Shown piece after piece: positions 21,085-62,468 of a stretch of 64,000 nucleotides of DNA; position 1 is the first letter of the stretch; each line of letters begins with the position of its first letter. The notes below the pieces were generated by a model. The model saw only the letters and a program-made list of their open reading frames with translations. It did no database searches and was not told where the DNA came from. This DNA comes from Streptomyces sp. NBC_01429 (GTDB taxonomy: Bacteria > Actinomycetota > Actinomycetes > Streptomycetales > Streptomycetaceae): positions 1,488,001 through 1,552,000 of the forward strand of contig NZ_CP109599.1 in assembly GCF_036231945.1 (NCBI RefSeq). Reading direction: 5' to 3'. The translations under genes and the position numbers were made by a program.

Positions 21085-21101
21085 CCCGGGATCCGTTCCC
21101 G

Positions 21102-21509: not shown

Positions 21510-21637
21510 TGCCTGTCACCTCCGAGCAGCCAGTGTCGCGCCGCGGCGGGGACGCGGACAGCCCGTGGGGGGGAGCTTCACCCCAAGGAGCGGTGGCGGG
21601 CCGGACGTTCCAGGGCGTGTCCGGGGCTCCTGCCGCC

Positions 21638-22645
21638 CTAGACGGCGTCGATGAGGGCGGTCAGTTCGGCGACGGTCAGGGAACCGGCGGCGCGGCGCTC
21701 CCGGGCGAAGGCGTCGGCGATGCGCTGGAGGGTGTCGTTGACCGGGGTCGGGACACCGTGGAGGCGGCCGAGCAGGGCGATCTCGCCGTTCAGATAGTCC
21801 GCCTCGATCGTGCCCGTACCCCGGCTGAGGCTCTGCCAGGACGAGCCGCCGCCGCGCGGCCCACCGGCGGTGGGCGCGAAGGAGACCAGGTCGCCCCGGG
21901 CCGCGGCCTGCTCCTCCCGGCTCGCGAAGGCGATCCCGGCGGCGTCGAGCACGGCGGTACCCTCCGCGTACACGCGGTCGACGAGGTCGCGGGAATCCTC
22001 GCCGAGCAGGCCGGTGACGGCCTCGATCGCGTTGACGAGGTTGGACAGCAGCTTGGCGTACTTCCAGCGCATCACGTCCGGGGCGAGCGGGGCGAGCAGC
22101 CGGGCCTTCTCCAGGCTCGCGGCGAGGGCCCGCGCCGTCCCGTCGTCGCCCGAGGGGTAGCGGCCGAGGTGGAGCATGCCGGTGTACGGGGCGCACTGCG
22201 CCACGACCTCGCCCGGCTCGACATGGGTCGCGGGCAGCCAGACGCACATGCCGTAGACCCGGCGGAAGCGCCGCAGCGCGAGCCGCTCGCCCTCGACCCC
22301 GTTCTGCGCGCAGACCAGCGGCAGCACCTCCCCGGCCGTGGCGCCCGCAGGACCGGCGCCCGCCACCGGCCGCGCCGACCACGCGTCCAGCGCCGCCACG
22401 CTGTCCTGGATCTTCACCGCGAGCAACAGGACGTCGTCCGGGCGCAGTTCGAGCGCTTCGGGCCGGTCGACCACCGGCACCCGGTGGACGCGGGTGCCGT
22501 CGGGGGTGGTGAGTGTGAGGCCGTGCTCGCGCAGCGCCTCGTAGTGCGCGCCGCGCGCGACGAGCACCACGTCCTGCCCCGCCTCCGCGAGCCGTCCGCC
22601 GATGGCGCCGCCGACCGCTCCGGCCCCGATGATGACGTGGCGCAT
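21638..22645 (-). CDS. 2-dehydropantoate 2-reductase (ketopantoate reductase family)
   Basis: A 335-aa NADPH-dependent reductase. The N-terminal Rossmann motif is IGAGAVGGAIGGRLAEAG. The family segments CAQNGVEGERLALR and MRWKYAKLLSNLVNAIEAV contain the catalytic Lys, followed by the ApbA/PanE C-terminal helical domain. The canonical reaction gives pantoate for coenzyme A. Many actinomycete paralogues have other substrates, and no pantothenate genes are nearby, so panE is not assigned. The start ATG 22645 follows GGAG. Confidence 0.85.
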   Translation of the reverse strand: MRHVIIGAGAVGGAIGGRLAEAGQDVVLVARGAHYEALREHGLTLTTPDGTRVHRVPVVDRPEALELRPDDVLLLAVKIQDSVAALDAWSARPVAGAGPAGATAGEVLPLVCAQNGVEGERLALRRFRRVYGMCVWLPATHVEPGEVVAQCAPYTGMLHLGRYPSGDDGTARALAASLEKARLLAPLAPDVMRWKYAKLLSNLVNAIEAVTGLLGEDSRDLVDRVYAEGTAVLDAAGIAFASREEQAAARGDLVSFAPTAGGPRGGGSSWQSLSRGTGTIEADYLNGEIALLGRLHGVPTPVNDTLQRIADAFARERRAAGSLTVAELTALIDAV

Positions 22646-33989: not shown

Positions 33990-34559
33990 ATGCGCGCAGA
34001 AGCGGTCAACCGGGTCAAGCTCGTGTTCACCCTGTTCGACGCCGATGGCAACGGCTTCCTGGAATCCGACGACTTCGATCTGATGAGCAGCCGGGTCGCC
34101 GCGGCCGTACCCGGCGCCGAGGAGGCCCGGAAGCAGGCGATGCGGGCCGGCTTCACCCGCTACTGGACCACGCTGCTCAGCGAACTCGACGCCAACCGGG
34201 ACGGCCGGATCAGCTACGAGGAGTACCAGGCGTGCGTCCTGAGCCCCGAGCGCTTCGACGAGGCGGTCGGCGAGTTCGCGGCCGGCTTCGCGCGCCTCGG
34301 CGACCTGGACGGCAGCGGTACCGTCACCCGCCCGGTGTTCATCGGCATGATGCGGGGCGTCGGCTTCGGCCTGCCGAACATCCACGCCCTCTTCGACGCC
34401 TTCGAGCCCGACGACGCCGACCGGGTCGGGGTGGACATCTGGGAGGCCGAGATCAAGAACTACTACGCCCCCGGCAAGGGCGGCATCCCGGCCGATCTGC
34501 TGGCGGAGCCGGCGACGGGCCAGGCCCTCACCCCGCCCGCCGCCCCCAGGCCGTCATGA
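33990..34559 (+). CDS. EF-hand calcium-binding protein (calerythrin-like)
   Basis: A 189-aa soluble protein with four EF-hand loops: DADGNGFLESDD (17-28), DANRDGRISYEE (67-78), DLDGSGTVTRPV (105-116) and DDADRVGVDIWE (141-152). Loops 1 and 2 have full calcium ligands. Loop 3 lacks the position-12 Glu, and loop 4 is partly degenerate. The spacing matches calerythrin and the Streptomyces Cab proteins, thought to buffer calcium or sense it during development. The start is ATG 33990 after AGAGGTGAGAG. Its last 32 bp overlap the convergent methyltransferase gene. Confidence 0.93.
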   Translation: MRAEAVNRVKLVFTLFDADGNGFLESDDFDLMSSRVAAAVPGAEEARKQAMRAGFTRYWTTLLSELDANRDGRISYEEYQACVLSPERFDEAVGEFAAGFARLGDLDGSGTVTRPVFIGMMRGVGFGLPNIHALFDAFEPDDADRVGVDIWEAEIKNYYAPGKGGIPADLLAEPATGQALTPPAAPRPS

Positions 34560-45010: not shown

Positions 45011-45559
45011 TCAGTTCGTGGCGAGGCGGAAGCTCATCTGCCCGAAGCCGACCATGTCGCCGTCCCGCACCACGGCCGTCGTCGTCACGCGGCGGCCGTT
45101 GACCGTCGTGCCGTTGGTGGAGCCGAGGTCGCGCAGGATCCACAGGCCGCCCTGCATGCTCAGCTCGGCGTGCAGCCGGGAGACCGTGTCGTGGCTGAGC
45201 CGTAGTCCGTTCAGCGGATCGCGGCCTATGCGCAGCGGGTACGGGCCCGGCTGGGGCAGCAGCAGCTTCGGGAGCTTCTCGGCCTGCCAGGCCCGGCGCA
45301 GCCGCTGCGAGAACGCCGATACGCCGCCGACCGCGCCGAACAGCCGCCGCGCCCAGGGGGCTTCGTGCTCCAGGTCCGCGGTGAGCGGCCGCAACTGCTC
45401 GACCCTGCGGGCGGCCAGCGCCAGATCCATCCGGCGCAGGAAGGTGTCGTGCGACAGCTTGCCCTGGGCCGCACCCTCTCTGAGCACCGCGAGGACACGG
45501 TCCCGCTCGGCGTCGGAGAGCCGCGCGGGGGACGTGTGGGACTCGAAGGAGGACGTCAC
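45011..45559 (-). CDS. DUF1707 and FHA domain protein
   Basis: A 182-aa cytoplasmic protein. The N-terminal DUF1707 (RLSDAERDRVLAVLREGAAQGKLSHDTFLRRMDLAL) is followed by a linker and a C-terminal FHA domain: PLRIGRDPLNGLRLSHDTVSRLHAEL, then LRDLGSTNGTTVNGRRV. FHA domains bind phosphothreonine, so this is an adaptor for a Ser/Thr kinase, perhaps one encoded elsewhere in the genome. The GTG 45559 start follows GAAGGACAATC on the minus strand. It is divergent from treZ. Confidence 0.93.
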   Translation of the reverse strand: MTSSFESHTSPARLSDAERDRVLAVLREGAAQGKLSHDTFLRRMDLALAARRVEQLRPLTADLEHEAPWARRLFGAVGGVSAFSQRLRRAWQAEKLPKLLLPQPGPYPLRIGRDPLNGLRLSHDTVSRLHAELSMQGGLWILRDLGSTNGTTVNGRRVTTTAVVRDGDMVGFGQMSFRLATN

Positions 45560-49343: not shown

Positions 49344-51572
49344 GTGGGGCTGGAGTTCGGGTATCACCTCGGCCTGCCCTCCGCCCTGCCCGGACTCCCG
49401 CTCGCTCCCCTCGTCCCCGGCTACCGCGAACTCCTCGACCGGCAGCGCGCCTTGGGGCTGCGGCACCTGGGCGAGGCGCTCGTCGCGCGCGGCGGGAGGC
49501 TGCGCGTGCTCGACGGCGTGTATCTGCCGCGCGCGCCGCGCGGCTGGCGGCGGCTGGACGGCGACACGCTGCGGCGGCTCCAGGGGAGCGGCTCCGGCGA
49601 CGGGGCGCTGCTGCGCCGGTTGGAGACGCTGCACGACCGGGATCCGCAGGCCCTGCGGCGCGTGCTGCTCTACCAGTTGACCGAGCTGTTGCAGGACGAT
49701 CCGGACGGTGCGCGGGCGGAGACCGCCGTCGCGCTCGGTGTCGATCCGGACGAGGCGGCGGCGCTCGTGTACGCGGCTCGGGCGCGGCGGCGGCTGAACC
49801 GGGATCAGCGCGGCGCGGCGGAGGGGCTGGAGGACGCCTGGCGGGACGGGCGGCTGCGCGGCGCCGTACGGCTGGCCGCGCTGCTGCCCGCCGACGGTGG
49901 ACAGGACCCGCCGCTGGCCCGGCGGTTGCGACGGATCGCCGCGCGCGAGCGCGAGACGGCGCAGGTCCTCGACCGGGCGCGGCTGCTGGACGGCGCCGGC
50001 GACACGGAGGGCGCCGGCGAGCACTATCTGCGCGCGGTCCGGCTGGCGTCCGACAGCGGACGGGCGCTGCGCGGGCTCGTCGGGGCGCATCTGCCCGCCG
50101 AGGGCGCGCCGGAGCGGCTGACCGCGCGACTGGCCCCGGACGCGGTGGAGTTGTCCTGGGACACTGCGCTCGCCCAGCGGGTCCCGGACTCCTGGCGGGT
50201 CATCAGGCTCACCTGTACGCCCGGCCGTTCCCCGATCGTCGCCGGGATCCCGGCGAGGGGGACCACCCGGGCCGGTTCGGCGCGCGACGCGAGTCCGCCG
50301 TTCGGGAGCGAAGTCCGGTACGCGGTGCTCCCGTTGCGCGGCGGGAGGGCGGACGCGCCGCCGCTGGTGTCGGCGCCGCTGCGCGTCATGCCCGAGGTGA
50401 CCGGACTGGTCCTCACCGACGGCCCCGAACGCCTCGAAGCGGCCTGGCACGAGCCGCCCCGGGCCGCCGGGGTCACCGTGACGCTGACGGATTCCGAGGG
50501 CCGGGAGGTCGACGCCGGGACGCCGTCCGCCGGGTTCACCGCGCGCGGGCTGGCGCCGGGCGCATACCGGGTACGGATCCGCTGCCACTACCGCGCCGGG
50601 AACGGCCGGGACGTCGCGTCGCCGGGCGTCGAGGCGTCCGGCACCGTCCGCGTGTGGCCGCGGCCGGTGCTCGCCCTCACCGCCGAACCGCACGGCGGCG
50701 GGGTGCGGTTCGGCTGGACCGGCGGCGCGGGCGCCACCGTGCGCCTGGTGGAGTGGACCGGCGCGCCACCGGCGCCCGGTACGGAGCTGCCGGCCGTGTC
50801 CGCGGCCTCCCCCGCGCCGCTGGACTGGCCGCGCACGGGCGAGGTGTCCTTCCCGCCGCCCGGCACCACCACCCGGGTGGTGGCCCTGGCGGTGCTCGGC
50901 GACCGCGCGGTGGCGGGTCCCGACGTCCTCGTCGATGCGCCGCACCCGGTCACCGGGCTGACCGTCGAGCGCACCGACGAGGGGCTCGCGCGGATCGGCC
51001 TCGACTGGCCCGACGGGGCCGGGCAGGTGACGGTGGCCGTGACGCAGGACGGGCGGCACGCCGAACACCGGGTGACCCGCAGCGTGTTCGTGCGCGAGGG
51101 GCTGTACGTGCCCGTGGCGCGCTCCGGGGCCCGGGTCGCCGCGACCCCCGTGACGACCGTCCCGGACGCGGTCGTCGTCCCGCTGGGCCGGGCCGAGACC
51201 GTGCTGCCGTCCGAGGTGATCGTGGCGTACGGCATCATCCCGGGGCCGCGCCGTCCGCTGCGCAGGAAGCCAGCCACCGTCCGGGTCACGCTCCGCGCGC
51301 CGGACGACGAACCGGCTTCCGGGCTGCCCGAGTTCGTACTGGTCGCCCGTTCGGGCGACAGCCGTTCACCGGTCCGGCCGCGCGATCCGGGCGACGGTAC
51401 GGTCGTGCTGCGGCTCAGTGGTGCGGAGCTGCGGCGCGCGGGTACGGTCGAGCGCGCGCTCCAGCCGGCCGGCTGCCCGCCCCCGTACGCCCTGCGCGGT
51501 TTCCTGCTCGGCGGCCGGGCGGCCTCCGTACGTCTCCAAGAACCCTCCCCCGCTCACCTGGTGGTTCGCTGA
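49344..51572 (+). CDS. Large Fn3-like multi-domain protein of the GTPase cluster
   Basis: A 742-aa cytoplasmic protein without signal peptide. The N-terminal third (1-260) is helical and Arg/Leu/Ala-rich (RALGLRHLGEALVARGGRLR, ALLRRLETLHDRDP, AAALVYAARARRRLNRDQRGAA), with LDGAGDTEGAGEHYLRAVRLA resembling a degenerate TPR. The rest contains about four fibronectin-III-like beta-sandwich units, for example LTARLAPDAVELSWDTA and FTARGLAPGAYRVRIRC. It is probably a scaffold for the GTPases. The stop is 1 bp before the next start, so it is the first gene of the operon. The start is GTG 49344; the exact family is uncertain. Confidence 0.82.
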   Translation: MGLEFGYHLGLPSALPGLPLAPLVPGYRELLDRQRALGLRHLGEALVARGGRLRVLDGVYLPRAPRGWRRLDGDTLRRLQGSGSGDGALLRRLETLHDRDPQALRRVLLYQLTELLQDDPDGARAETAVALGVDPDEAAALVYAARARRRLNRDQRGAAEGLEDAWRDGRLRGAVRLAALLPADGGQDPPLARRLRRIAARERETAQVLDRARLLDGAGDTEGAGEHYLRAVRLASDSGRALRGLVGAHLPAEGAPERLTARLAPDAVELSWDTALAQRVPDSWRVIRLTCTPGRSPIVAGIPARGTTRAGSARDASPPFGSEVRYAVLPLRGGRADAPPLVSAPLRVMPEVTGLVLTDGPERLEAAWHEPPRAAGVTVTLTDSEGREVDAGTPSAGFTARGLAPGAYRVRIRCHYRAGNGRDVASPGVEASGTVRVWPRPVLALTAEPHGGGVRFGWTGGAGATVRLVEWTGAPPAPGTELPAVSAASPAPLDWPRTGEVSFPPPGTTTRVVALAVLGDRAVAGPDVLVDAPHPVTGLTVERTDEGLARIGLDWPDGAGQVTVAVTQDGRHAEHRVTRSVFVREGLYVPVARSGARVAATPVTTVPDAVVVPLGRAETVLPSEVIVAYGIIPGPRRPLRRKPATVRVTLRAPDDEPASGLPEFVLVARSGDSRSPVRPRDPGDGTVVLRLSGAELRRAGTVERALQPAGCPPPYALRGFLLGGRAASVRLQEPSPAHLVVR

Positions 51573-51573
51573 C

Positions 51574-52848
51574 ATGACGAGCGTCATCTGTCCCTACTGC
51601 TTCGACCGCGCTCCGGCCGCGCGGCTGCCCTACCGCTGTCTGATGACGGCGACGGGCGTCCGGGGCGGCACGCCCTGCGCGGCCGAACGCGACGATGTCT
51701 GGGGTGAGTTCATGGGGCCGAGCGTGCCTCCCGCGCTCCGGATGAGAGGGCCGGTCTTCACGCCCGGACGGGGGCGCGCCGGACTGGGCGCGCTCGGGGC
51801 GCTCACCGGGCCGCGCGGCGGATCGCGCGCGGCGTGCCCCGGCTGCGGGGTGTCCACCCCGGTGCGGGTCTGCCGGAGCTGCCACAGCGACCTGCCCAGC
51901 GACTACTGCGACCAGGACAGCCGCATCATCGCGCTGGTCGGCGCCAAGGCGTCCGGCAAGAGCACCTATGTGTCGGTGCTGGTGAACGAGGTGCGCAACC
52001 GGGTGGGGCGCGCGTTCGACGCGTCGCTCGCCGCGATGGGCAGCGACACCCAGCGCCGGGACCGGGAGATGGCGGAGGACCTCTACGAGCGGCTGCGGCT
52101 GCCCGGGACCACCCGCCCGGCCGCCCTGGGCTTCAACGACCCGCTGCTGTACCGGCTGAGCCTGCCCCGCCGGGGGCGTCTCGGCGACGGCACCCGGCAC
52201 ACCGCGCTGGTGTTCTTCGACGCGGCGGGCGAGGACCTGAAGAGTTCCGAGGCCATGGACCGCTACACCCACTACCTCGGCGCGGCCGACGGCATCATCC
52301 TGCTCGTCGATCCGCTCCAACTCGGCGCCGTACGGGACCAGCTGGTGCCCGGTGAGGGCCCTCCCCCGCCCGCCGTCGAGACCCCGCCGCAGCAGATCGC
52401 GGCCGATCTCGCCGCGCAGCTGCGGGCGCACGGGCGGGGAGGTTCGCGCGGCCGGATCTCCACCCCGATGGCCGTCGCGATCAGCAAGTCGGACATGCTG
52501 CGGCCGCTGCTGGGCCCGCACTCCGCCGTCCTGCGCAACGCGCCGCACAGCGGGGGCGCGCTGGACGACGACGACCGGCTGGCCGCGCACGAGGAGCTGC
52601 GCTCGCTGATGGACGGCTGGGACTCCGGGGCGCTCTACCGGCAGTTGGAGCGCGACTTCGCCGAGCTGTCCCTCTTCGGGGTCTCCGCGCTCGGCTCGCC
52701 GCCGCCGTCCGACGCCCCGGCCGACGCGCCCACGTCGGGGCCCCGGCCGCTGCGGGTGGAGGACCCGCTGCTGTGGCTGCTCGGGCGGCGCGGTCTCATT
52801 CCCGTACAGAAGAACAGCACGTCGCGGAGTAAGGGAGCCGGCGCATGA
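51574..52848 (+). CDS. Zinc-ribbon TRAFAC-type GTPase, soluble (double-GTPase system)
   Basis: A 424-aa cytoplasmic NTPase. The N-terminal cysteine clusters are CPYC (6-9), C22/C35 and CPGC...CRSC (88-103), forming zinc ribbons. The P-loop is GAKASGKST (123-131), the G3-like motif is DAAGED (about 216) preceded by VFFD, and the G4-like motif is ISKSDM. The C-terminal tail is Pro/Ala-rich. This matches the GTPases found with GAP1-type proteins in NTP-dependent conflict systems. It overlaps the GAP1 gene by 4 nt. It probably acts as a switch read out by the neighbouring proteins; the target is unknown. Confidence 0.85.
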   Translation: MTSVICPYCFDRAPAARLPYRCLMTATGVRGGTPCAAERDDVWGEFMGPSVPPALRMRGPVFTPGRGRAGLGALGALTGPRGGSRAACPGCGVSTPVRVCRSCHSDLPSDYCDQDSRIIALVGAKASGKSTYVSVLVNEVRNRVGRAFDASLAAMGSDTQRRDREMAEDLYERLRLPGTTRPAALGFNDPLLYRLSLPRRGRLGDGTRHTALVFFDAAGEDLKSSEAMDRYTHYLGAADGIILLVDPLQLGAVRDQLVPGEGPPPPAVETPPQQIAADLAAQLRAHGRGGSRGRISTPMAVAISKSDMLRPLLGPHSAVLRNAPHSGGALDDDDRLAAHEELRSLMDGWDSGALYRQLERDFAELSLFGVSALGSPPPSDAPADAPTSGPRPLRVEDPLLWLLGRRGLIPVQKNSTSRSKGAGA

Positions 52849-55529
52849 GCCTGGCACAGCTGCACTACACCTCGGCCCCGCCGGGACCCGACGGGTCCGG
52901 CTTCCGCTTCACGGCGGTCACGCCCGGCGTCCCCGAGTCCCTGCTCAGAGAGGCCGAGCAGCTCATCGGGTACGAGCCGCCGCACGAGGCACCGCCGCGC
53001 CCGACGGCGGCCGAACTCGACCTGTTCCCCAAGGCGTTCAGCCACAGCGTGCTCTCCGACGGGAGCCGGCTGCTGGCCAGGACGGTGTACACGGGCGCCG
53101 ACTACAGCGGGCGCTGGGGGAACTTCCACGCCCATGCCGTCCACGTCCCGGCGGACACCCCGCTCTCCCCCGGCGTGCCTCCCATCAGCGCCTGGGACTC
53201 CCCGCAGTGGGCGGCCGGCACCCCCGAGGGCGGCAGTCCGGCGCCGCTGGCGGAGCTGCCGGTGGCGCGGAGCTTCGACCGGCGCGGGCTGGTGTCGTTC
53301 GCGGCCGGCCGCGCCGCGTGGCTCGCTGAGTTCTTCGCCGGTCTGCGCGAGCTGGTGCTGCGGGAGACGGCGCCGCAGATCGTCCTGGTGGAGCGGGACA
53401 GCGCCGATGTGGCGCGGTGGATCGCGCTGGCCAGTACGGTCCTGCCGCGCGCGAGCGCCCACCGGCTGACCTTCACCACGTACACGCGCCGCCCGCAGCT
53501 CGCCCGGCAGCAGATCGTCGGCGTGCTGCCGGACGACGCGCAGGGCCTGGACCGGCACGATCCGCGCTATCTGGTGCTCGACTGCGCCGGGGGCGGCGGC
53601 CCGGCCCGCGAGCCGCGCCCCGCGCACGGGACGGAGCGCCCGGCGCCGGACGCCTGGGCGCTGACCGCCGCGCGCGTCTGGCTGGGCAGGGCGCCCGAGC
53701 TGTTCGCCGAGGCGGCCGGGCTGCCGGGCGGCCGGTTCACGGCGGGGCCGCTGGCGGCGCTCGCGCTGTGCACGGGGATCAGCCCGGGGACGGACGGCCG
53801 GACGGAAGCGGCCCGCTGGGCGCGCGAGCCCGCGCACACGCACGCGCTGGACACCGAGCGGCTGCCCCGGTTCCTCGACGGGCTGTGTGCGCCCGCCGAG
53901 GACCGTACGCCCGCCGAGACGGCCGCCCTGGCCGGGCTGTTCGCGGCCCTCGACGGCCGGGCTCCGATGGCAGCGACCGCGCCGCTCGGGGCTCTCGTAC
54001 TGACCGAGGCGGTCCGTACGCCGGACGCCGGGATCGACCTGGGCGCACTGCGCCCCGCCTCGCTGCCCGGCGATCTCAGGCGCCGCCTGGCGGCCGAGCT
54101 GGCCGACGAGCTGCGCGACGGCGTCGCCGGTGCGGCGGCCGACGACGGGCCGCCCACCACCCGCGCGGTGGAGCTGCTGCGGGTCGCCGAGCCGCTCGGC
54201 GTGGACTGCGCGGATCTGCTGCCGGGGCTCGCGCGCCGGCTGTCCCAGGCGCTGATCACCGACCCCGAGCGCGCCTACACGCCCGGGGTGGCGGCCGCGC
54301 TGGAGGACCACTTCGATCTGCGCAGCGCGCTGCTCAGCGCGCTCGACGCGCTGGCCGCCGCCGATCCCCCGGCCGCCGTCCGGCTGCTCGGGCTCGTCCC
54401 GCTCTCGCCGCAGGGGGTGCAGACGCTGCCGCATCTGCGGATGTGCGCGCGGATGTCCGCGCCCGGGACGCCGGTGGGTGCCCCGGCCGGGGGCGCGGTG
54501 GGTGGCACGCCCGGGGGCCCGGTGGGTGCCGCGCCCGGGGGCGCCGGCCGCTTCCCCCCGCTCGGCGACGACCGGGTCACCGCGCTCAACGAGGTGCTGC
54601 GCGCCTCCGGCGTCTCCCCGTTCGCCGACCCGCTCGTCCTGCGCACCGCCGTCCGGCTGGTGTGGGACGGCGGGGCGCCGACCGCCGGTGAGGCGCGGCT
54701 GCTGCTCGCCGAGACCGGCTCCGACGCGCACCGCGCGGCGGGCACCTGGAGCGCCCTGGTGGGGGCCGCGCTCGACGGGCCGGGGGACACGGCCCGGGAG
54801 CCGTCCGCCGACCGCCGCGGCGACGCGTCCGCCGCCGCCTCGCAGGCCCTCGCGCGCTACCGCGCCGACGCCCCGGATCTCGCCCACGACCTGCTGCGCT
54901 GCTTCCCGCGCGAGCTGGAGGCGCGGCAGCGCGGCGCCCTGCTGCTCCTCGAATTCGCCGGAAAGCTGGTGGCCGGCACGGCGGACACCGGCTGGACGGA
55001 GCGGGCGCTGTCGCTGCGCGCCGTCGCGGAGCCGGTGGAACCGGCCGTACTGGACACGGCGTTCGGGGTCCTTGCCCGGGGTCTGCTCTCCGAGGAACGG
55101 CCCGACGGCGAGCTGTACGCCCTGGTCCACTGCGGCGATCCGGAGCTGATCGCCGCGTACGACCGGGCGGCCCGCGAGGAGCGGGTGCGCGAGCGGCTGC
55201 GCACCGTACCCGCGTACGCCGCGGACTGTTTCACCGCGTGGTCCTCGCTGCCCGGCGCCAACCGGGCCTGGGACGAGACGCGTACGGGCCTGCTCGACAA
55301 GGTGCTGCGGCCCGTGGTGCGCGCGCTGCCCGCCGAGGACACCGACGCGGTCGAGCGGTGTCTGCGGCGTACGGCGAGCAGCAGGGCCGAGGAGTTCCGT
55401 ACCTGGAACCGGCCGGGCGCCCTGGGCCGGCTCGGTCTGCGCTTCGGCGGCCGGGGCCGCCGGCCCGTCCAGGACGGGCCGCGCGTCGGCGGGGTGGAGC
55501 CGCCGCGTGAGGACGGCGGCCGGCCGTGA
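52845..55529 (+). CDS. GTPase-associated protein 1 (GAP1)-type protein
   Basis: An 894-aa cytoplasmic protein. The N-terminal domain ([29 protein letters not shown], then [12 protein letters not shown] and [21 protein letters not shown]) is the GAP1-N2 type. Middle and C-terminal helical domains follow (GAP1-M, GAP1-C). A low-complexity Gly/Ala/Pro/Val linker at about 543-566 separates them. Proteins of this family occur only beside the two zinc-ribbon GTPases and are predicted to regulate or read them. It overlaps both neighbours by 4 nt (ATGA and GTGA), a strict operon. No enzymatic motif is visible. Confidence 0.83.
54472..54543 (+). repeat. Three 24-bp tandem repeats in the GAP1 gene
   Basis: Three imperfect units each begin CGGTGGGTG and encode eight residues of the type VGxxxGGx. 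They form a flexible linker between domains. The similarity between copies suggests recent duplication. Confidence 0.85.
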
Positions 55530-57130
55530 TCTTCCCGCTGCTGGCCGCCGTCTGGCTGGGCACCCTCCTCCTGCGGCTGACCGTGGGGGCGGCCGTGCTG
55601 CTCTGCGTGGGCTACACGTTCTGGCACTTCCTCGGCCTCTCCCTCACGTCCGCGGTGCGGGTCCTCGGCCCGCGGCGGGCCGGGGTGCCCGATCCGCGCA
55701 TCCCCCGGTTCGGCGCGGGCGAGACGGCCCACCGGGCCTACTGGTCGCGGCAGATGTGGCTGGACGGCCGGTCCGCCGCCGACGGCGCGCTGGGCGCGCT
55801 GCGGCACCGGCTGGTGGCGTGGTGGTTCGGCCGTACGGTACGCAATCTCCTCGGCGGCCGCAGGCCCGGCGGGTCGCGGGGCCGCAGCCCGCTGAACCGT
55901 ACGGTGCTGCGCCTGACCGCGCCCGCCGCCGCCCTGGGCGCGAGCGCTGGGGCGCTGCTGGCGGCGCTGCTCGTCTCGGCGGTGCTCGCCGTCCTCGCGC
56001 TGCTGCTCGGCGTGGTGTACGCCGCGGGCGCGGCGACGGCGCTCGCGCTGCGCCGCGCGGACGCGCTCGGGCTGCGGGCGCGCTCGGTCCGTATGAAGTG
56101 CCCCCACCCCGGCTGTTACCGGCCGTTCCCGCTGGCCGTGCACACCTGCCCGAACTGCGACACCGCCCACGCGGCGCTGCGGCCGGGGCGCTACGGCGCG
56201 CTGTGGCACACCTGCGGCTGCGGTCTGCGGCTCGCCACCACCGCGTTGGCGCGCCGGAGCCGTCTCACGATGCGCTGCCCGCACTGCGCCCAGGACCTGC
56301 CCGGGGCCGTCGCCGGTACCCGCGTCGTGCACCTGCCCCTGGTCGGGGGTACGTCGGCGGGCAAGACGATGCTGCTGGCCGCGATGGTCGCCGGACTCCA
56401 GTCCTTCTCGCGCGGCGGCCCGTTGACCCTCGACTACGCCTCCACCACCGATCAGCGGAACACCGGATCCCTCAACCAGCAGCTGAACAGCACGGGTTGG
56501 GCGCTCAAGACCCAGGGCGGCCAGCCCCGGGCCCTGATGCTGTCCGTCGGCCGGGGCATGCGGCGCCGGCTGCTTTACCTGTACGACCCGATGGGCGAGT
56601 CGCTGCGCGACGCCGGTTCCGTACGGGAGCAGCATTACCTGGCCCACGCGGACGGGGTGATCCTGGTCGCCGACGTACTGGCCGAGCCGCAGGTGCGGCG
56701 GGCCCTGGACGACGTGGACAGGCTGCGCGCGGCGGGCGCCCGGCCCGCCGAGCAGGGGCCGTTGGACACGTACCAGCGGCTGACGGGTGAGCTGGCGGCC
56801 CTCACCGGACGGCGGCGGCGCCTTCCGGTGGCGGTCGTGATCACCAAGCGGGACACCCTGGACCGGCTGGAGAGCCTGCCCGTACCGCCGGACCAGGGGG
56901 CATCAGGCGAACCGGGCGCGCCCCTCGAAAGCTGGCTGACGGAGATCGGGCTGGGCGCGCTGGTGCGTGGTCTGCGGCACGACTTCGGGACCGTCCGCTA
57001 CTGGTCGGTGAGCGCGCACGCGGCCACCGGCGCCGGGGCGCTCGACAGCGAGCAGCGGCGGGCCGCCGCACCGGTCCTGTGGCTCCTGTCGCGCTCGGGA
57101 CTGCGCGTCGCGGCGGCGGCCGGGAAGTGA
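55526..57130 (+). CDS. Membrane-anchored zinc-ribbon GTPase (double-GTPase system)
   Basis: A 534-aa protein. One transmembrane segment lies at about 4-38 and a hydrophobic hairpin at about 130-176. Zinc ribbons follow: CPHPGC (192-197), CPNC (208-211), CGC (230-232) and CPHC (251-254). The GTPase domain then has P-loop GGTSAGKT (274-281), a G3-like DPMGES in LLYLYDPMGES and a G4-like VITKRDTL. It is related to the soluble GTPase upstream but tied to the membrane, so the pair could couple the cytoplasm to the envelope. The GTG start overlaps the GAP1 stop. Confidence 0.85.
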   Translation: MIFPLLAAVWLGTLLLRLTVGAAVLLCVGYTFWHFLGLSLTSAVRVLGPRRAGVPDPRIPRFGAGETAHRAYWSRQMWLDGRSAADGALGALRHRLVAWWFGRTVRNLLGGRRPGGSRGRSPLNRTVLRLTAPAAALGASAGALLAALLVSAVLAVLALLLGVVYAAGAATALALRRADALGLRARSVRMKCPHPGCYRPFPLAVHTCPNCDTAHAALRPGRYGALWHTCGCGLRLATTALARRSRLTMRCPHCAQDLPGAVAGTRVVHLPLVGGTSAGKTMLLAAMVAGLQSFSRGGPLTLDYASTTDQRNTGSLNQQLNSTGWALKTQGGQPRALMLSVGRGMRRRLLYLYDPMGESLRDAGSVREQHYLAHADGVILVADVLAEPQVRRALDDVDRLRAAGARPAEQGPLDTYQRLTGELAALTGRRRRLPVAVVITKRDTLDRLESLPVPPDQGASGEPGAPLESWLTEIGLGALVRGLRHDFGTVRYWSVSAHAATGAGALDSEQRRAAAPVLWLLSRSGLRVAAAAGK

Positions 57131-57182
57131 CCGGCCGGAGACGATCCGCGGGAAGGAGAGCGAAGAGAGATGACGGGGAAAG

Positions 57183-57329
57183 GTGGTCGAACACAGCATG
57201 CCGGTGGTGACTCCGCATGTCGTACGAGGGCGCAGGATGGTGCTCGGCCTGTTCATCGCCGCGCTGTTGATCACCGTCAGCACGCTGCTGGCGGTGACCC
57301 TCTGGCTCCTTTCGGGGCTGGTCGGTTGA
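57183..57329 (+). CDS. 48-aa single-pass membrane peptide in the GTPase operon
   Basis: A short frame between the second GTPase and the vWA gene. It encodes a basic N-terminus (VEHSMPVVTPHVVRGRR) and one transmembrane helix (MVLGLFIAALLITVSTLLAV), then TLWLLSGLVG. Third positions are about 85% G/C, as in real genes here. Start GTG 57183 has little room for a ribosome binding site; ATG 57198 or ATG 57222 are alternatives. An overlapping frame at 57170 has a better Shine-Dalgarno sequence but non-coding codon usage. It is possibly a regulator or anchor of the cluster. Confidence 0.6.
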   Translation: MVEHSMPVVTPHVVRGRRMVLGLFIAALLITVSTLLAVTLWLLSGLVG

Positions 57330-57386
57330 GCCCGCCACCGCGCGGAGAACCGGCGCCGGGACAGGAACCGAGCCTGATCCGCGCTT

Positions 57387-57422
57387 CGAACCGACATCCG
57401 AACCGACATCCCAACCGACAGC
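57387..57422 (+). repeat. Three 12-bp tandem repeats before the vWA gene
   Basis: CGAACCGACATC occurs twice exactly and a third time with two changes, in the 130-bp gap between the membrane peptide and the vWA gene. It is non-coding as far as can be seen, and lower in GC than its surroundings. Confidence 0.8.
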
Positions 57423-57459
57423 TGTACCGGAACCGAATCCGAAACGGGAGGACATGGGT

Positions 57460-58146
57460 GTGAGTGACATCCCCGGTGGGCCGATGGCGAACCGGCCGGT
57501 CCACTTCATCTGGCTGCTGGACTGCTCCTACTCCATGCAGGGCCAGAAGATCGGCCAGCTCAACTACGCGATCCGGGAGGCCGTCCCGGAGATGCGCTCG
57601 GTCGCGCACGACAACCCGGCGGCGCAGCTCCTGCTGCGTACGCTGACCTTCTCCACCACCGCCCAGTGGCACCACAAGGACCCCGTGCCGGTCGACGACT
57701 TCGTCTGGCAGGACGTGCCCGTGGACGGAGTCACCAATCTGGGTGAAGCGCTGCAACTGGTCGCGCTCGAACTCAGGTCGCCGCCGATGCCGCAGCGCGC
57801 CCTCAAGCCGGTGCTCGCGCTGGTCTCCGACGGGGTGCCCACCGACGACTGGCGGGCGGGCCTCAAGGCCGTCGACGCCACGCCGTGGGGAAAGAAGGCG
57901 GTCCGGGTGGCGATCGCCATCGGTGAGGACGCCGACCGGGACGTGCTGCGGGAGTTCCTCGGCAACCCCGAGCTCCAGCCGCTGGACGCCAACAGCCCCA
58001 AGCAGCTGGCCGCGGCGATCCGCTGGGCCTCGACGGCTGCGGTCAAGGCCGCCTCGCAGCCGGTGGCCGGCCTTCCCGACCCGCTGGTGAAGCAGCCGCC
58101 CTACGCCCCGCCGCAGCTGGACGACGACGATGACGACGTGTGGTGA
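57460..58146 (+). CDS. vWA-domain protein (TerY/YegL-like)
   Basis: A 228-aa metal-binding adhesion-type protein. The MIDAS motif is LLDCSYSMQ (Asp21, Ser23, Ser25), with the further metal ligands in DGVTNLGEAL and VSDGVPTDDW. The C-terminus is acidic (LDDDDDDVW). GTG 57460 was chosen because GGGAGG lies eight nt upstream; ATG 57454 is too close to that site. With the next two genes it forms a vWA / PP2C / kinase triad, as in TerY-P and YegL-YegK-YegI systems, where the vWA protein is the hub. Confidence 0.92.
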   Translation: MSDIPGGPMANRPVHFIWLLDCSYSMQGQKIGQLNYAIREAVPEMRSVAHDNPAAQLLLRTLTFSTTAQWHHKDPVPVDDFVWQDVPVDGVTNLGEALQLVALELRSPPMPQRALKPVLALVSDGVPTDDWRAGLKAVDATPWGKKAVRVAIAIGEDADRDVLREFLGNPELQPLDANSPKQLAAAIRWASTAAVKAASQPVAGLPDPLVKQPPYAPPQLDDDDDDVW

Positions 58147-59186
58147 ACGTGGTCGACGCACCGCGCTGGGAGACGCTCGCCGAGAGCGTCCAGGGCGTCA
58201 ACAAGCAGCGCAATCAGGACGCGTGCGTGGTGGACGGCACGGGCACCCTTGAGGAGCCGCTGGTGCTGGCGGTCGCGGACGGCCACGGCTCGGCCAAGCA
58301 CGCCCGCAGCGACATCGGGGCACAGCGCGCCACGGACCTGTTCGCCGCGCACGCGCGGGAGTTCGCGGCGCTCGCCAGGGCGGAGGGCTCGGCGGGGCCG
58401 CCCAGCCTGAGCCGGCTGATGCACTACGCCCGGCATGTGATGCCGCGCAGGCTGGTCGCGGCCTGGCAGCGGGAGATGCTGGGCCACTACGACCGGAACC
58501 CACCGCGCCCTGCACCCGGCTCCGTACCCCCGGCCCCCGGATCAACCCCGGGATCCGGTCAGCTGCCCGGATCCGGCTCCCGCCCCGGGCCCAGCGACGA
58601 GCAGCGACTGCTGCTGTACGGTACGACGCTGATCGGCGCCGTCCTGACGCCACGGCTGTTCGCGGCGTGGCAGCTCGGCGACGGCGAGCTGGCGGTGATC
58701 GAGTGCGACGGCCGGCCGGCACTGCCGCTGGCGCCCCTGGAGGCGGACCTCGGGGACGAGACGGAGTCGCTGTGCGGCCGGGACGCGTGGCGGCTGATGC
58801 GCGTGCACTGGGCGCCGATCGTCGACCCGGCCCGTACCCCGCGGCTCATCACGCTCTCCACGGACGGCCTGTCCAAGAGCTACGCCTCGGACGAGGGGTT
58901 CTCCCGGTTCGTGACCGGTCTGGACAGCAGGCTGGACGACGAGGGCACCGAGAGCGTACGGGCCGCGCTGCCCACGTGGCTGGCGAAGGCGGCGCGGCAC
59001 TCCGGCGACGACACCACGCTCGCGGCCGGGCGACGGCTGCCACCCGGACCCGCGCCGGCACCGTCGCGGCCCGGACCCGACCGGCACGACCCGCACGACC
59101 CGCACGACCCGCACGACCCGCACCACGGGAACGACACGCACGACACGCAGCACACGCACGACAGGGACAACGGGGAGAGACGATGA
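58143..59186 (+). CDS. PP2C-family protein phosphatase
   Basis: A 347-aa metal-dependent Ser/Thr phosphatase. Motifs are QRNQDAC (R23, D26), AVADGHGS (Asp46, Gly47), LITLSTDGLSKSY and HSGDDTTLAA, so all main metal ligands are present. A Pro/Gly/Ser-rich insertion lies at about 120-145, and the C-terminal tail has His-Asp-Pro repeats. It most likely removes phosphates placed by the kinase encoded next to it. It overlaps the vWA gene by 4 nt (GTGA) and the kinase gene by 4 nt. Confidence 0.93.
   Translation: MNVVDAPRWETLAESVQGVNKQRNQDACVVDGTGTLEEPLVLAVADGHGSAKHARSDIGAQRATDLFAAHAREFAALARAEGSAGPPSLSRLMHYARHVMPRRLVAAWQREMLGHYDRNPPRPAPGSVPPAPGSTPGSGQLPGSGSRPGPSDEQRLLLYGTTLIGAVLTPRLFAAWQLGDGELAVIECDGRPALPLAPLEADLGDETESLCGRDAWRLMRVHWAPIVDPARTPRLITLSTDGLSKSYASDEGFSRFVTGLDSRLDDEGTESVRAALPTWLAKAARHSGDDTTLAAGRRLPPGPAPAPSRPGPDRHDPHDPHDPHDPHHGNDTHDTQHTHDRDNGERR
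59084..59119 (+). repeat. Four 9-bp repeats encoding His-Asp-Pro
   Basis: GCACGACCC occurs four times in tandem near the 3' end of the phosphatase gene. It is an in-frame microsatellite that probably varies in length and adds a His-rich tail. Confidence 0.93.
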
Positions 59187-60511
59187 CCGGCATGCTCGAC
59201 AGCGGCACCCGCCTCACCGCCGACAACGGCGACGAGGTGGAGGTCACCCGGATGCTCGGCGCGGGGGGCCAGGGCGAGGTCTACCAGGTGACGACGGCGC
59301 GCGGCGACAAGGCGCTCAAGTGGTACTACCCGGCCTGCGCGACCCCCGAGCAGGAGGAGATCGTCCAGGACCTGGTGGACCGCGGCTTCGACGACGACCG
59401 GTTCCTGTGGCCGACGTCCTACGTCCGCGCGCCGCACGGGTTCGGGTATCTGATGGACATCCGTCCGGACCGCTACAAGGGTCTGCCGGCCCTGTTCCGG
59501 CGGCAGCTGCGGACCACGCCCCGCGCCCTGCTGGCGGCGTCGCTCTACACGGTGGAGGCGTACCAGGCGCTGCACTCGGAGGGGATCGCCTACCGCGACA
59601 TCTCCTGGGGCAACATCTTCTTCGACCCGGACACCGGCGAGGTCCTCGTCTGCGACAACGACAACGCGGTGGTGGAGGGGGACAGCAGCGGGATCTCCGG
59701 GACCATGGAGTTCATGGCGCCCGAGCTGGTCCGCGCGGACCGGGGCGCCAGGCCCGGCACCCAGACCGATCTGCACTCGCTCTCGGTCCTGCTGTTCATG
59801 CTCCTGATGAACCATCACCCGCTCAAGGGCAGGAACGAGTTGGCGATCCACTGCCTCGACGAGGCGGCGGAGCGGAGGCTGTACGGCAGGCAGCCCCTGT
59901 TCGTCTTCGACCCGGCGGACAACTCCAACGCGCCCGACCCCGTCGAGCAGTCCACGGTCCTGCACACCTGGGCCGCCGCGCCCCGGACCCTTCAGGACCT
60001 CTTCACGCACAACTTCACCACCGGGCTGCGCGATCCGGCCACGCGGGTACGGGAGTCGCAGTGGCGGGACGCGCTGCGGGCCGTGCTGGACTCGGTGGTC
60101 GACTGCGCGCACTGCGGGCGGCAGAACATGACGGAGCCCGAGGAGACGGACGCGGGGACCTGCTGGTCCTGCGCGGGGGCGCTGGTGCTGCCGCCGCGGC
60201 TGGTCATCACCACTCCGCCGCCGCGCACCGAACGCCACGTCCGGCTGCGCCGCACCGCCAAGCTGCACACCCACCATCTGGCGCCGGAGCCCGCGCGGCA
60301 CGACTACAGCGACGCCACGCTCGTCGCCGAGCTGACCGAACACCCCAGCAGGCCGGGCAGGTTCGGGCTGGCCAACCGCTCGGACACGGAGTGGACCGGG
60401 ACCCGCTCCGACGGGACGAGCCAGCGCATCGCGCCGGGCCAGACCGTACCGCTGCGCTCCGGTCTCGAACTCACGCTCGGCGGGGCGCAGGCCGTCGTAC
60501 GGGCGAAGTAG
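59183..60511 (+). CDS. Ser/Thr protein kinase with divergent active site (YegI/TerY-P type)
   Basis: A 442-aa kinase. The Gly-rich loop is GAGGQGEVY (26-34) and the ATP Lys is K46 in ALKWYY. The catalytic loop is YRDISWGN (D139, N144), so HRD is YRD. The magnesium Asp is D158, where DND replaces DFG. MAPEL is the APE motif. A zinc ribbon follows (C308, C311, C327, C330), then a beta-rich C-terminal domain of about 90 residues. Key residues remain, so it is probably active, though the altered DFG may change regulation. ATG 59183 overlaps the phosphatase stop. Confidence 0.92.
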   Translation: MTGMLDSGTRLTADNGDEVEVTRMLGAGGQGEVYQVTTARGDKALKWYYPACATPEQEEIVQDLVDRGFDDDRFLWPTSYVRAPHGFGYLMDIRPDRYKGLPALFRRQLRTTPRALLAASLYTVEAYQALHSEGIAYRDISWGNIFFDPDTGEVLVCDNDNAVVEGDSSGISGTMEFMAPELVRADRGARPGTQTDLHSLSVLLFMLLMNHHPLKGRNELAIHCLDEAAERRLYGRQPLFVFDPADNSNAPDPVEQSTVLHTWAAAPRTLQDLFTHNFTTGLRDPATRVRESQWRDALRAVLDSVVDCAHCGRQNMTEPEETDAGTCWSCAGALVLPPRLVITTPPPRTERHVRLRRTAKLHTHHLAPEPARHDYSDATLVAELTEHPSRPGRFGLANRSDTEWTGTRSDGTSQRIAPGQTVPLRSGLELTLGGAQAVVRAK

Positions 60512-60595: not shown

Positions 60596-60925
60596 TCACA
60601 GCCCGATCAGGCGGCCGATCTCCTGCGCGAGCGCCACGCCTCCGCTGCCGGCCGCGAGGCCCAGCGAGATCGTCTCCAGCGCCTGCCGCAGCCGTCCCTG
60701 GTCGGCCGGGCGGCCCTCCTCGTCGGCCCGTACCAGCTCGCCGCGCACCACCTCGGCCTGCGCGGCGAGCGCCGGGCTGTCCTCGGCGCGCAACTGCCGC
60801 ACCAGCTCGGCGGCGAGGCGTACGGCCTCGGCCGCGCTCGTGCCGTGGTGATGGACCTCGATCCTTCCCCCGTCGCCGAAGTTGCTCGGCCCCGAGATCT
60901 CGCCGTGGAAGTTGAAGGTGCTCAT
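60596..60925 (-). CDS. 109-aa helical protein with N-terminal GPSNFG motif
   Basis: A small protein without signal peptide. Residues 5-22 form a Gly/Asn-rich segment (NFHGEISGPSNFGDGGRI) closely matching the end of the 491-aa neighbour. The remainder is helical (SAAEAVRLAAELVRQLRAED, ALAAQAEVVRGELV) and ends in a Gly/Ala/Leu-rich amphipathic segment (ISLGLAAGSGGVALAQEIG) like those of membrane-acting or effector-associated modules. The start is ATG 60925 after AGGAG. It is second in a minus-strand operon. I infer an effector or adaptor that assembles through the shared motif. Confidence 0.8.
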   Translation of the reverse strand: MSTFNFHGEISGPSNFGDGGRIEVHHHGTSAAEAVRLAAELVRQLRAEDSPALAAQAEVVRGELVRADEEGRPADQGRLRQALETISLGLAAGSGGVALAQEIGRLIGL

Positions 60926-60992: not shown

Positions 60993-62468
60993 TCACGGGC
61001 CGGCCGGCGCGCCCGCCGGCTGCTGGCCGGGCCCGTAGGCGATCTGGCCGTTGTTGCCGAAGTTGCTGGGGCCGGTGACATCGCCGGAGAAATTGTAGGT
61101 CTGGGCGTTGATGACCTGCTGGGCCTGGTCGAAGGAGCCGGTGTCGACGTGGTGGTCCTTGAGGAACTTCTCCGTCGCGATCAGGACGCCCTGCTGGAGC
61201 CGGTGCAGGAAGTCCTGGGAGTCCGTGCGCTCGGAGTGGCCGACGCCGTCCCACGACGACACCCACTCCCGCAGGCTGCTGACGGCTCCGTGGTCGTAGA
61301 CGGCATGGCGCTTGCCGATGTCCTTGCGCCACTTCTCCAGCTCGCGCCGCCGCCGGTTCTGCTCAGCGGTACGGCGGCGGCCCCGGCCCGCCGCGCCCCG
61401 CAGCGCGGGCCAGAACCGCCCGCTCGCGTACCGCACCAGGCTCCACCAGCGCTCGAAGCCGTCGATGGGCAGCGTGTCGACGCGGTAGTGGCGGCCGCCC
61501 ACCGGAGGGATCGCGTAGGCGGCGACCTCCCAGGACAGACTGGGGTGCTGGAGCCGGGCGCGCAGATGCATCGACACGATGATCCGGCCGCCCTCGCCGA
61601 TCCGCTCCAGACTCAGATAGGTCCGGGCGCCCGCGCCCGGCTGGACCAGGCCCGACTGCACCAGCTTCGGGGAGATCCTGGCGCGCGGCCTGCCGAGCGG
61701 ATCGGGCAGCAGATCGCCGCCGATGAGACGGACATGCGTACCCAGCACATAGAGCCGGTTCTGGGCCCGCAGCCCTTCGAGGCCCGCGATGTTCTCCATC
61801 TCACGGGCGATGTACGTATGCAGGTCGACCGCGTCGAAGGGCGTGATCGTCAGCTTGCCGCCGGCGGGGTCGGCGGCCGGGCGGCTGATGTCGATGGGCT
61901 GCCAGACCGACTCCTTGATCTTCGTCCCGCTGCCGACGAACGGGTTGGTGCGCTCGGCGGCGGCCGTGTACGGCACGACGTTGGCGCGCCTCAGCTCCCG
62001 CAGCCGGTCCTCCACCTCGCCCGCGACCGGCGTCGCGAGCTCCTCGGGCTTCGTCCCCGACCTGAACACCGCGAACGCGGCGTCCCGGGCCGCGCTCTCC
62101 TCGGCGTGGACGAGCCACCAGGCGGTGCCCAGGGCCGCCAGCAGCCCGGCGCAGCCCGCGCCCACCACGGTGGACGACCCGCCGGCCAGACCGTAGAGGG
62201 CGACGACGACAGCCCCCAGCGCCCCGGCGGACAGCCGGGCCAGCCGGCGGTCCCGGGTGTCGAAGCGCCGTACCGCCGCGGTCGCGTGGCGTACCAGCGC
62301 CAGCAGGTTGACGCCGAGCGGCAGGCCCACGGCGGTCATCCGGTCGGCCGTGAACTCCCTGTGCACGTGCCGGGCGAAGTCCTCGTCCAGATGCGCCGAG
62401 GCGCAGAGCCGCCGCGTCACCCCGTCCTTCTGATACTGCGGCAACGGTGGCAGCCTTCGGCTCGCCAT
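60993..62468 (-). CDS. 491-aa membrane protein with C-terminal GPSNFG motif
   Basis: An unrecognised protein. Two transmembrane helices lie at about 78-95 and 100-120. A large soluble region follows with segments such as VWQPIDISRPAADPAGGKLTI, THVRLIGGDLLPDP and RIIVSMHLRARLQHPSLSWEV. A basic stretch (GRGRRRTAEQNRRRRELEKW) then leads to a helical region. Residues 459-476 (NFSGDVTGPSNFGNNGQI) repeat the motif of the downstream 109-aa protein, with a short Gly/Pro/Ala tail behind. The start is ATG 62468 after GGGGAGGGTGA. It is probably the membrane partner or sensor of the pair. Confidence 0.8.
   Translation of the reverse strand: MASRRLPPLPQYQKDGVTRRLCASAHLDEDFARHVHREFTADRMTAVGLPLGVNLLALVRHATAAVRRFDTRDRRLARLSAGALGAVVVALYGLAGGSSTVVGAGCAGLLAALGTAWWLVHAEESAARDAAFAVFRSGTKPEELATPVAGEVEDRLRELRRANVVPYTAAAERTNPFVGSGTKIKESVWQPIDISRPAADPAGGKLTITPFDAVDLHTYIAREMENIAGLEGLRAQNRLYVLGTHVRLIGGDLLPDPLGRPRARISPKLVQSGLVQPGAGARTYLSLERIGEGGRIIVSMHLRARLQHPSLSWEVAAYAIPPVGGRHYRVDTLPIDGFERWWSLVRYASGRFWPALRGAAGRGRRRTAEQNRRRRELEKWRKDIGKRHAVYDHGAVSSLREWVSSWDGVGHSERTDSQDFLHRLQQGVLIATEKFLKDHHVDTGSFDQAQQVINAQTYNFSGDVTGPSNFGNNGQIAYGPGQQPAGAPAGP

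Follow-up and report, generated by a model that had tools for sequence, protein, structure and literature searches.

The stretch of Streptomyces sp. NBC_01429 DNA analysed here (64,000 nucleotides, hereafter the window; contig NZ_CP109599.1, positions 1,488,001 to 1,552,000) carries, at 49344-60511 of its + strand, an eight-gene unit in which two DO-GTPases and a GAP1 protein are joined to a vWA/PP2C/kinase triad. Downstream of it, convergent to the kinase, lie two minus-strand genes, here called MHB and MTM, whose products bear short end motifs that match each other; this pair is the main subject of the present work. The original prediction had closed the unit at 60511 and missed the pair, whereas the conserved unit usually extends to about 62468, on the minus strand.

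All eight genes are present on the + strand in the order that had been claimed. The first (49344..51572) encodes a 742-residue FN3-like protein, a predicted sensor or scaffold, and is followed after a 1-nt gap by DO-GTPase A (51574..52848, start at 51574), which harbours CxxC zinc-ribbon motifs, by an 894-residue GAP1 protein of the N2-M-C type (52845..55529), and by DO-GTPase B (55526..57130), in which CxxC motifs are accompanied by N-terminal hydrophobic segments visible in the sequence. Next come a 43-residue peptide with a single transmembrane (TM) segment preceded by a VTPxxxRGRR motif (57198..57329), a vWA protein (57460..58146, start at 57454 or 57460), a PP2C phosphatase (58140..59186), and a Ser/Thr kinase (59183..60511, start at 59183) that bears CxxC pairs and an additional region towards its C-terminus. 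Most junctions had been described as 4-nt overlaps, but only three of the seven are (GTPase A/GAP1, GAP1/GTPase B and PP2C/kinase); vWA and PP2C overlap by 7 nt, and the TM peptide is flanked by gaps of 67 nt before and 124-130 nt after it. The existence of this peptide had been recognised correctly, but its place is corrected here to a frame that differs from that of the 97-residue open reading frame at 57170-57463. It is plausible that the whole eight-gene stretch is carried on a single transcript; a sigma-70 pattern scan yielded no promoter-like site, which says little in Streptomyces.

Profile searches bear out the gene identities. Both GTPases match Pfam DO-GTPase2 (PF19993; 8.5e-10 for A, 7.4e-13 for B), GAP1 matches GAP1-N2 (3e-44), GAP1-M (7e-25) and GAP1-C (4e-163; accessions PF20013, PF20014 and PF20052), and the phosphatase and kinase match PP2C_2 (PF13672, 4e-27) and Pkinase (PF00069, 1e-15), while the VWA match is weak (3e-4, below cut-off). 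Pfam detects no FN3 domain in the product of the first gene; a profile built from 12 orthologues does match FN3con structures, at 1e-4 and in one region only (profile positions 350-425). With regard to conserved residues, judged on 44 to 49 rows per protein, GTPase A keeps the P-loop GxKxSGKST and DAAGE across 44 rows, and GTPase B keeps its P-loop, DPMGE and TKRD across 47 rows, DxxGE being conserved in both. PP2C retains the metal-site motifs ADGHG, GDG, STDG and SGDDTT across 49 rows, and the vWA protein conserves DCSySM and keeps its metal-ion-dependent adhesion site (MIDAS) residues. In the kinase, K46, R138-D139 and N144 are present and conserved, DND stands in place of DFG, and a zinc ribbon is read from the CxxC pairs (Pfam zf-LITAF-like at only 0.054). 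A counterpart of the TM peptide lies between GTPase B and vWA in 59 of 59 locus rows; among its 49 distinct sequences, 40 carry [VMQT]-T-[PR] and 43 a basic cluster, the latter by a loose pattern.

MHB (60596..60925, minus strand) encodes 109 residues, with the N-terminal motif FNFHGEISGPSNFGDGGRIEV and a predicted four-helix bundle, and MTM (60993..62468, minus strand, start at 62420 or 62468) encodes a predicted two-TM protein of 475 or 491 residues with the C-terminal motif YNFSGDVTGPSNFGNNGQIAYG. AlphaFold2 models of the two proteins, built with 51 and 54 alignment rows, mostly exceed a predicted local distance difference test score (pLDDT) of 80 outside the motifs. The MHB model (mean 76.8) consists of four helices, residues 1-27 remaining below 50. 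That of MTM (mean 86.6) begins with two long helices next to each other, also has an alpha/beta domain and more long helices, and drops below 50 at residues 442-475, the motif end; its N-terminal hydrophobic helix pair is read as a putative membrane hairpin. Neither protein could be assigned to a known fold with confidence. For MTM, the best Foldseek E was 0.015, with none at or below 0.001, a second fold comparison reached Z 6.5 (4m9b, Bet v 1-type, root-mean-square deviation 3.5, 115 aligned), which may mean only a common arrangement, and the sequence gave no match to solved structures at E 1. For MHB, the best Foldseek E was 0.22, and the second comparison reached Z 10.8 (1x8z, root-mean-square deviation 2.0, 87 aligned), as is usual for helical bundles.

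The motif found at the start of MHB and at the end of MTM spans 20-25 residues and is Asn/Gly-rich. It varies among loci and matches within each, as in L115 (NNFSGPTFGNFGDNG / NNFAGPTWGNFGNDG), L106 (NFNGPVSGNAFGNDN / NFNGIVQGNAFGSQN) and L105 (IGSVSGGQNQFGDHG / IGSVSGGQNQFGNQG), and a search of the window's genome with the MHB motif returned only MHB and MTM below E 0.01. The match was measured as the BLOSUM62 local alignment score of MHB head against MTM tail, with 20,000 permutations, on 66 pairs collapsed to 53 distinct ones (the broken copy L126 having been dropped beforehand). Matched pairs scored 75.7 and mismatched ones 52.0 (0/20,000 permutations); where MTM bodies are <60% identical, the values were 73.8 and 44.1, with 9/11 pairs best in their row (0/20,000). 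Across 44 loci, motif against motif gave an excess of 37% (0/20,000), compared with +2% for the GTPase G domains (312/20,000), -1% for the GTPase zinc ribbons, +2% for the MHB helices against the MTM region before the tail, and -3% for the MHB motif against that same region. In eight divergent loci the motif excess rose to 61% (0/20,000; 5/8 best in row). The two short motifs of the pair are thus matched locus by locus. Recent gene conversion was rejected as the main cause, since codons are identical at 576 of 799 shared residues against 539 expected; with so small an excess, the match is maintained chiefly at the protein level.

The motifs most likely bind like to like. It is quite possible, though at less than an even chance, that they form an ordinary specific docking interface, through short beta-strand pairing or a shared beta-solenoid, and hold a stable complex together with neither polymerisation nor templating. 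Matching alone shows just co-evolution, and compared with BASS pairs (bacterial amyloid signalling, see below) the motifs sit at the opposite ends, both of which suit docking. However, the two segments are alike and not merely complementary, and such like-with-like co-variation would fit homotypic stacking better; moreover, each is short and rich in Asn and Gly, and the monomer models give it low pLDDT.

MTM and MHB are usually found together with the system. Peptide patterns from 14 MTMs, of which 13 are unit-linked, were scanned against GTDB contigs and gave 56 loci, of which 48 also contain MHB, kinase, PP2C and vWA; 47 of these have a GAP1 match as well, and L102 stops at a contig edge. 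Carriers of the unit include the non-pathogenic S. cinnamoneus (L072) and S. rimosus (L075). The remaining eight comprise L116 (MTM and GAP1), L119, L121 and L122 (MTM and MHB only), L123 (MTM only), L124 and L125 (short matches), and L126 (a broken copy in which fragments of kinase and FN3 remain). At least eight of the 56 loci coincide with loci of a survey of 150 genomes of the genus, the window's own included. In that survey, the kinase subfamily (18 genomes) and MTM of the close type (16) overlap in 15 (hypergeometric P 8e-17, uncorrected for shared descent), and all 13 full units retrieved from GAP1 regions possess both MTM and MHB. When the kinase was taken as anchor in 22 genus genomes (the 18 together with G366, G458, G497 and G533), MTM adjoined it in 17; for the 18, the check for absence of MTM covered the whole genome. 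In L120, the pair lies on the same strand, just upstream of GAP1-like, vWA, PP2C and kinase genes, with MHB 31 nt from the called GAP1-like gene. The genes beyond MTM are msrB/murC in seven loci (window counted) and belong to several other families elsewhere, so the pair moves with the unit. One might suppose, from their opposite strand and from the five kinase loci out of 22 that lack MTM, that MTM and MHB sit next to a known system by chance and are carried along with it through their position; against the linkage in 48/56 loci and 15/18 genomes, the varied genes beyond MTM and the same-strand arrangement of L120, this explanation is very improbable, and it was set aside.

The same two-gene module, with very different barcodes, stands alone elsewhere in Streptomyces genomes, including that of the window. 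At E 1e-15 or better, 40 of the 150 genomes hold MTM relatives, which are of the close type in 16, and 28 hold MHB relatives at 0.001 or better; 20 regions of such relatives were examined, 11 chosen for MTM and nine for MHB. A small gene lies directly downstream of MTM in all 11 MTM-chosen regions, and the start of this partner carries a matching motif in nine, quite unlike that of the window: IRFGNISGSGNRVGH / IRFRNISGNGNHVGH in L164, IIGNQAIGTGA / YVGNQAVGRGA in L172 and, at about 5650 kb in the window's own genome, GSVTGSIAAGPGAKATAT / AQVSGSALAAGRNASATA in a second pair (L173:4619-6879). The two exceptions, L169 and L170, match only weakly (scores 18 and 29); in both, the start called for the partner gene is probably too late. 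Matched scores averaged 57.9 over the 11 stand-alone pairs, against 36.1 for mismatched ones (0/20,000 permutations), and 61.0 against 31.7 for six hand-picked divergent pairs, all six best in their row; out of 720 possible pairings of these six, the true one alone reaches its score. Three of the four partners searched match DUF5955 (PF19380) at 1e-4 to 3e-6, one of the three above cut-off, whereas the window's MHB gave no match to this family at E 0.1. One related MTM contains an FHA domain, and another adjoins a vWA gene.

In eight of the nine MHB-chosen regions (L155-L162), MHB is solitary and its motif shortened or worn, as judged by eye; the ninth, L163, retains a remnant of MTM together with an MHB match that is divided between two frames. 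These genes bear on the idea that MHB is an inhibitor or antidote capping the MTM tail, in a toxin-antitoxin-like or otherwise silenced module. A small helical partner encoded directly downstream of a larger membrane protein would suit such a role, as would the persistence of MHB without MTM in L155-L162 and in the full unit L139, since antidotes can be kept in this way. Nevertheless, by eye, the MTM-less MHB genes show a shortened or worn motif while their helices are still alike, so the motif is not retained once MTM has gone, and we regard the antidote role as distinctly unlikely. By eye, most solitary MHB genes also stand beside genes resembling those at 20239-21084 and 21638-22645 of the window (window stretch 20239-22645), as though they were remnants of a unit once present at another site, about 40 kb away from the current unit, and since lost.

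The GTPase/GAP1 half and the triad half of the unit are truly joined, although from the GAP1 side the link is loose. GAP1-C was found in 46 of the 150 genomes (45 above cut-off) and the kinase subfamily in 18, of which 17 also have GAP1-C; the exception, G001, has its locus on a 5.3-kb contig ending inside the unit, with MTM, MHB, kinase, PP2C and vWA up to its end. Forty GAP1 regions from 39 genomes were classified, leaving out the window's own and those of G010, G081, G112, G116, G119 and G121, whose GAP1-C matches are partial or weak (G081 was added later). Thirteen are full units, the window being one more, 21 show GAP1 with no detected GTPases or triad, and six take other forms: divergent GTPases with no triad (L065, L066, L070), GAP1, MHB and MTM only (L068), FN3, GAP1, vWA and kinase (L057), and GAP1-like, vWA, PP2C, kinase and FN3 (L069). 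The linkage of the halves on which the original prediction rested thus holds from the triad side (17/18) and partly gives way from the GAP1 side, where 21/40 copies are solitary. Within the class, the kinase subfamily occurs in nine of 394 genomes; the two outside the genus, L142 and L143, contain vWA, PP2C and kinase with no GAP1 or DO-GTPase match within 20 kb. Of note, L142:2586-10401 places its triad among small WXG100/ESX-like proteins (by eye). A related assembly of GAP1-like, vWA, PP2C, kinase and FN3 proteins, with no DO-GTPase match, is found in L138:5785-19866, L069 and L120, the first two with Hsp70 proteins too (by eye).

It had first been proposed that the GTPases and GAP1 are targets of the kinase and phosphatase, which would gate GTP state at the membrane; MTM and MHB would then be side components. 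This proposal draws on the tight gene order with its partial overlaps, on the catalytic residues retained in kinase and PP2C, and on the presence of GAP1-C with 17 of 18 kinases of the subfamily. On the other hand, the triad has no GAP1 or DO-GTPase match within 20 kb in the two distant genomes L142 and L143, and in L120 and L138 it accompanies a GAP1-like protein with no DO-GTPase match, so that the GTPases are not obligatory partners; furthermore, the single-TM peptide and MTM would be equally good candidate substrates. We consider this reading rather unlikely.

The components have evolved at different paces. Over 13 units (the window's and all but one of the 13 fetched full units), mean pairwise identity is 87% for vWA, 76% for the kinase, 75% for GTPase A, 59% for MTM and for PP2C, 57% for GTPase B, 53% for GAP1, 52% for MHB and 48%, the lowest, for the FN3-like protein, a value in line with what a fast-evolving sensor would display. 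In a GAP1 tree of 49 rows, midpoint-rooted for drawing only and with some weak forks and long branches, solitary or extra copies appear at four positions or more: many make up a single large clade, L034 groups as sister to the copy of the window, and the others are one L071 copy and L061/L063/L064. The ratio of non-synonymous to synonymous substitution among solitary copies is 0.17-0.25 in eight comparisons, not all independent, and 0.46 in L061/L063, so selection maintains these copies. A DO-GTPase2 search of 22 genomes, in which the best 81 candidates per genome were scored, found the full unit in G018 and, in the other 21, no match in 19, one above and one below cut-off. GAP1 seems to have turned into a solitary, selected gene several times, which suggests that it could give protection from incoming copies of the system, as antidote or decoy. 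Intact GAP1 with no nearby GTPases or triad is seen in L031-L036, L038, L039, L041-L044, L046-L050, L052, L061, L063 and L064, and many solitary-GAP1 regions contain an msrB/murC or glyoxalase gene, which are neighbours of the window's unit. Elsewhere in the window, a 189-residue EF-hand protein (33990-34559; Pfam EF-hand 2e-12) and, about 4 kb upstream of the unit, a minus-strand DUF1707-FHA protein (45011-45559), a possible phosphothreonine reader, are encoded.

Taking these elements together, the likeliest reading, though at about even odds, is that the locus is a kinase-theme GAP1-N2 DO-GTPase system whose output is a homotypic, amyloid-like MTM/MHB signalling pair operating without an NLR. 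The simplest mechanism, modelled on the templated assembly of BASS/Bell and RHIM systems, analogues drawn from the texts of PMC8086366, PMC12261475, PMC7889193, PMC7885112 and PMC9815663, would have clustered MTM tails template the assembly of MHB, while the GTPase/GAP1 switch and a kinase/PP2C threshold act upstream. The fast-evolving FN3-like protein would sense a cue, and the two DO-GTPases with GAP1 would form a membrane-proximal switch. Brought together by the vWA protein and perhaps by the single-TM peptide, the kinase and PP2C would set a threshold through reversible phosphorylation. MTM tails, once released, would cluster at the membrane and serve, by motif-motif contact, as the template on which the N-terminal motif of MHB joins a beta-rich, amyloid-like assembly, and the clustered MHB bundles could finally disturb the membrane or halt growth of the affected hyphal compartment. 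Within this scheme, it is very probable that the pair is part of the system and that its motifs interact directly; templating by MTM tails and MHB clustering as amyloid-type signalling, the last two steps, fall a little short of an even chance, and the full order of steps is doubtful. A wider formulation, which we put forward tentatively, since it too is somewhat improbable, is an NLR-free signalosome of amyloid or beta-solenoid type, comprising a membrane protein and a helical executor that share a lineage-specific barcode as output of a GTPase/GAP1 switch thresholded by kinase and phosphatase, with solitary GAP1 as antidote or decoy. Amyloid formation, cell death and defence by MTM/MHB are what we infer, and the matched end-motif pair may represent a new kind of self-assembling signal.

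Several observations weigh against an amyloid-like output of the system. MTM has no Pfam match above cut-off and no NTPase match, no strong TM helix is apparent in MHB (hydropathy at most 1.34 over 19 residues), searches with PADLOC, like those with NCBIfam, gave generic kinase matches only, and monomer models cannot show amyloid. The numbers of pairs scoring best in their row are modest: 7/53 for the distinct pairs, a low count since close relatives obtain similar scores (mismatched pairs average 75.1 when their MTM bodies are >90% identical), 15/44 for the 44 loci and 5/11 for the stand-alone pairs. Some controls also gave an excess, namely the P-loops of GTPases A and B in the 44 loci (+3%, 2/20,000, though the effect is small), the G domains in the eight divergent loci (+5%, 1,033/20,000), and, among stand-alone pairs, the helices against the region before the tail (29.4 against 26.1, +13%, a figure with no permutation). 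As for linkage, the GTDB scan is biased towards unit-linked MTM, its patterns having come from such MTMs, and 24 of the 40 genomes with MTM relatives hold distant ones only. Pairs lacking the unit exist (L119, L121, L122 and L164-L174), so the pair can work alone. Conversely, five of the 22 kinase genomes have no adjoining MTM: the reduced L057; L069, L137 and L138, which represent a distant assembly (L137 is cut by its contig, yet its genome contains no close MTM); and L139:9049-19803, a full FN3/GTPase/GAP1/vWA/PP2C/kinase unit with a worn-motif MHB and no MTM. This last locus offers a natural test of how the unit acts without the pair.

The question of whether signalling amyloids operate in NLR-independent pathways of fungi and bacteria is raised in the text of a review (PMC7889193), and the locus, with its motifs of about 25 residues, is a concrete, statistically supported candidate. 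If the proposed reading is true, DO-GTPase/GAP1 systems, so far predictions, would gain a testable output, and Ser/Thr phosphorylation would be linked to higher-order assembly in multicellular bacteria.

Among known systems, the triad is of the TerY-P type, for which linked tellurite-resistance (Ter) genes are a described feature. E. coli YegL-PphC-YegI, in which vWA, PP2C and kinase are likewise encoded by neighbouring genes (in the order vWA-PP2C-kinase here), is a distant relative on the basis of pairwise comparison (kinase against YegI 7e-5, vWA against YegL 1e-6; PP2C against PphC not significant, 0.087). Unlike the present locus, the E. coli region has no GAP1, GTPase or MTM/MHB gene in its annotation. 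A phosphorylated VWA protein is named in the text of an S. rimosus phosphoproteome (PMC9600765), but its locus tag could not be tied to this system.

The closest published counterpart is the prediction of Kaur et al. 2020 (PMC7159879), whose text describes the same assembly as the third, or kinase, theme of GAP1-N2 DO-GTPase systems, restricted to actinobacteria and representing about 10% of GAP1-N2 neighbourhoods; a conflict role is predicted there for GAP1-N2 systems, and multimeric assembly is proposed as a general output of such systems. The combination of GTPase/GAP1 and triad highlighted by the original prediction is thus real but already in print as a prediction, since these authors describe it. 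The component list is equal (DO-GTPases, GAP1 N2/M/C, FN3 protein, PP2C and vWA), and the kinase is described there with a zinc ribbon and a beta-rich domain, the zinc ribbon being read here from CxxC pairs; as a difference, GAP1 here often occurs without a DO-GTPase. L138, L069 and L120 harbour a hybrid of two of the themes of Kaur et al. We found neither the MTM/MHB pair nor the single-TM peptide named in the text of that paper, although its figures or supplements could include them, and the words 'amyloid' and 'RHIM' are absent from its main text. In the open-licence PubMed Central literature, a scope outside which subscription papers, figures and supplements lie, we found no experiment on DO-GTPase systems and no description of the pair. 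The EACC1 system of the same paper (section 33) also consists of two genes, membrane-associated and actinobacterial, but was rejected as a match: as its text describes them, EACC1 has one TM helix and a partner that is mostly a caspase, less often a cyclase, whereas MTM combines two long predicted helices with a large domain and is paired with a helical bundle.

With regard to bacterial amyloid signalling, the BASS motifs and Bell/NLR pairs (Dyrka et al. 2020, as presented in the texts of PMC8086366, PMC7889193 and PMC12261475) resemble MTM/MHB in their adjacent genes with a short variable motif matched per pair, in the small helical partner, and in their occurrence in filamentous actinobacteria. 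On the question of a Bell domain, MHB is a four-helix bundle in the model, with no Pfam match and no strong TM helix. In BASS, the motif sits at the N-terminus of the receptor and the C-terminus of the effector, an order reversed in MTM/MHB, which counts as a further point against the amyloid-like output weighed above. With this inverted order and no NLR, assignment of the pair to the BASS/NLR group was rejected, and kinship with RHIM/BASS3 is not claimed because the strict core GxxNx[IVLM] is so rare (5/54 distinct MHB motifs and 6/54 MTM tails). The larger partner here is a predicted two-TM protein, and the pair is tied to GTPases, a kinase and a phosphatase. What is new, in comparison with these systems, is an MTM/MHB pair with matched motifs that accompanies an otherwise published system.

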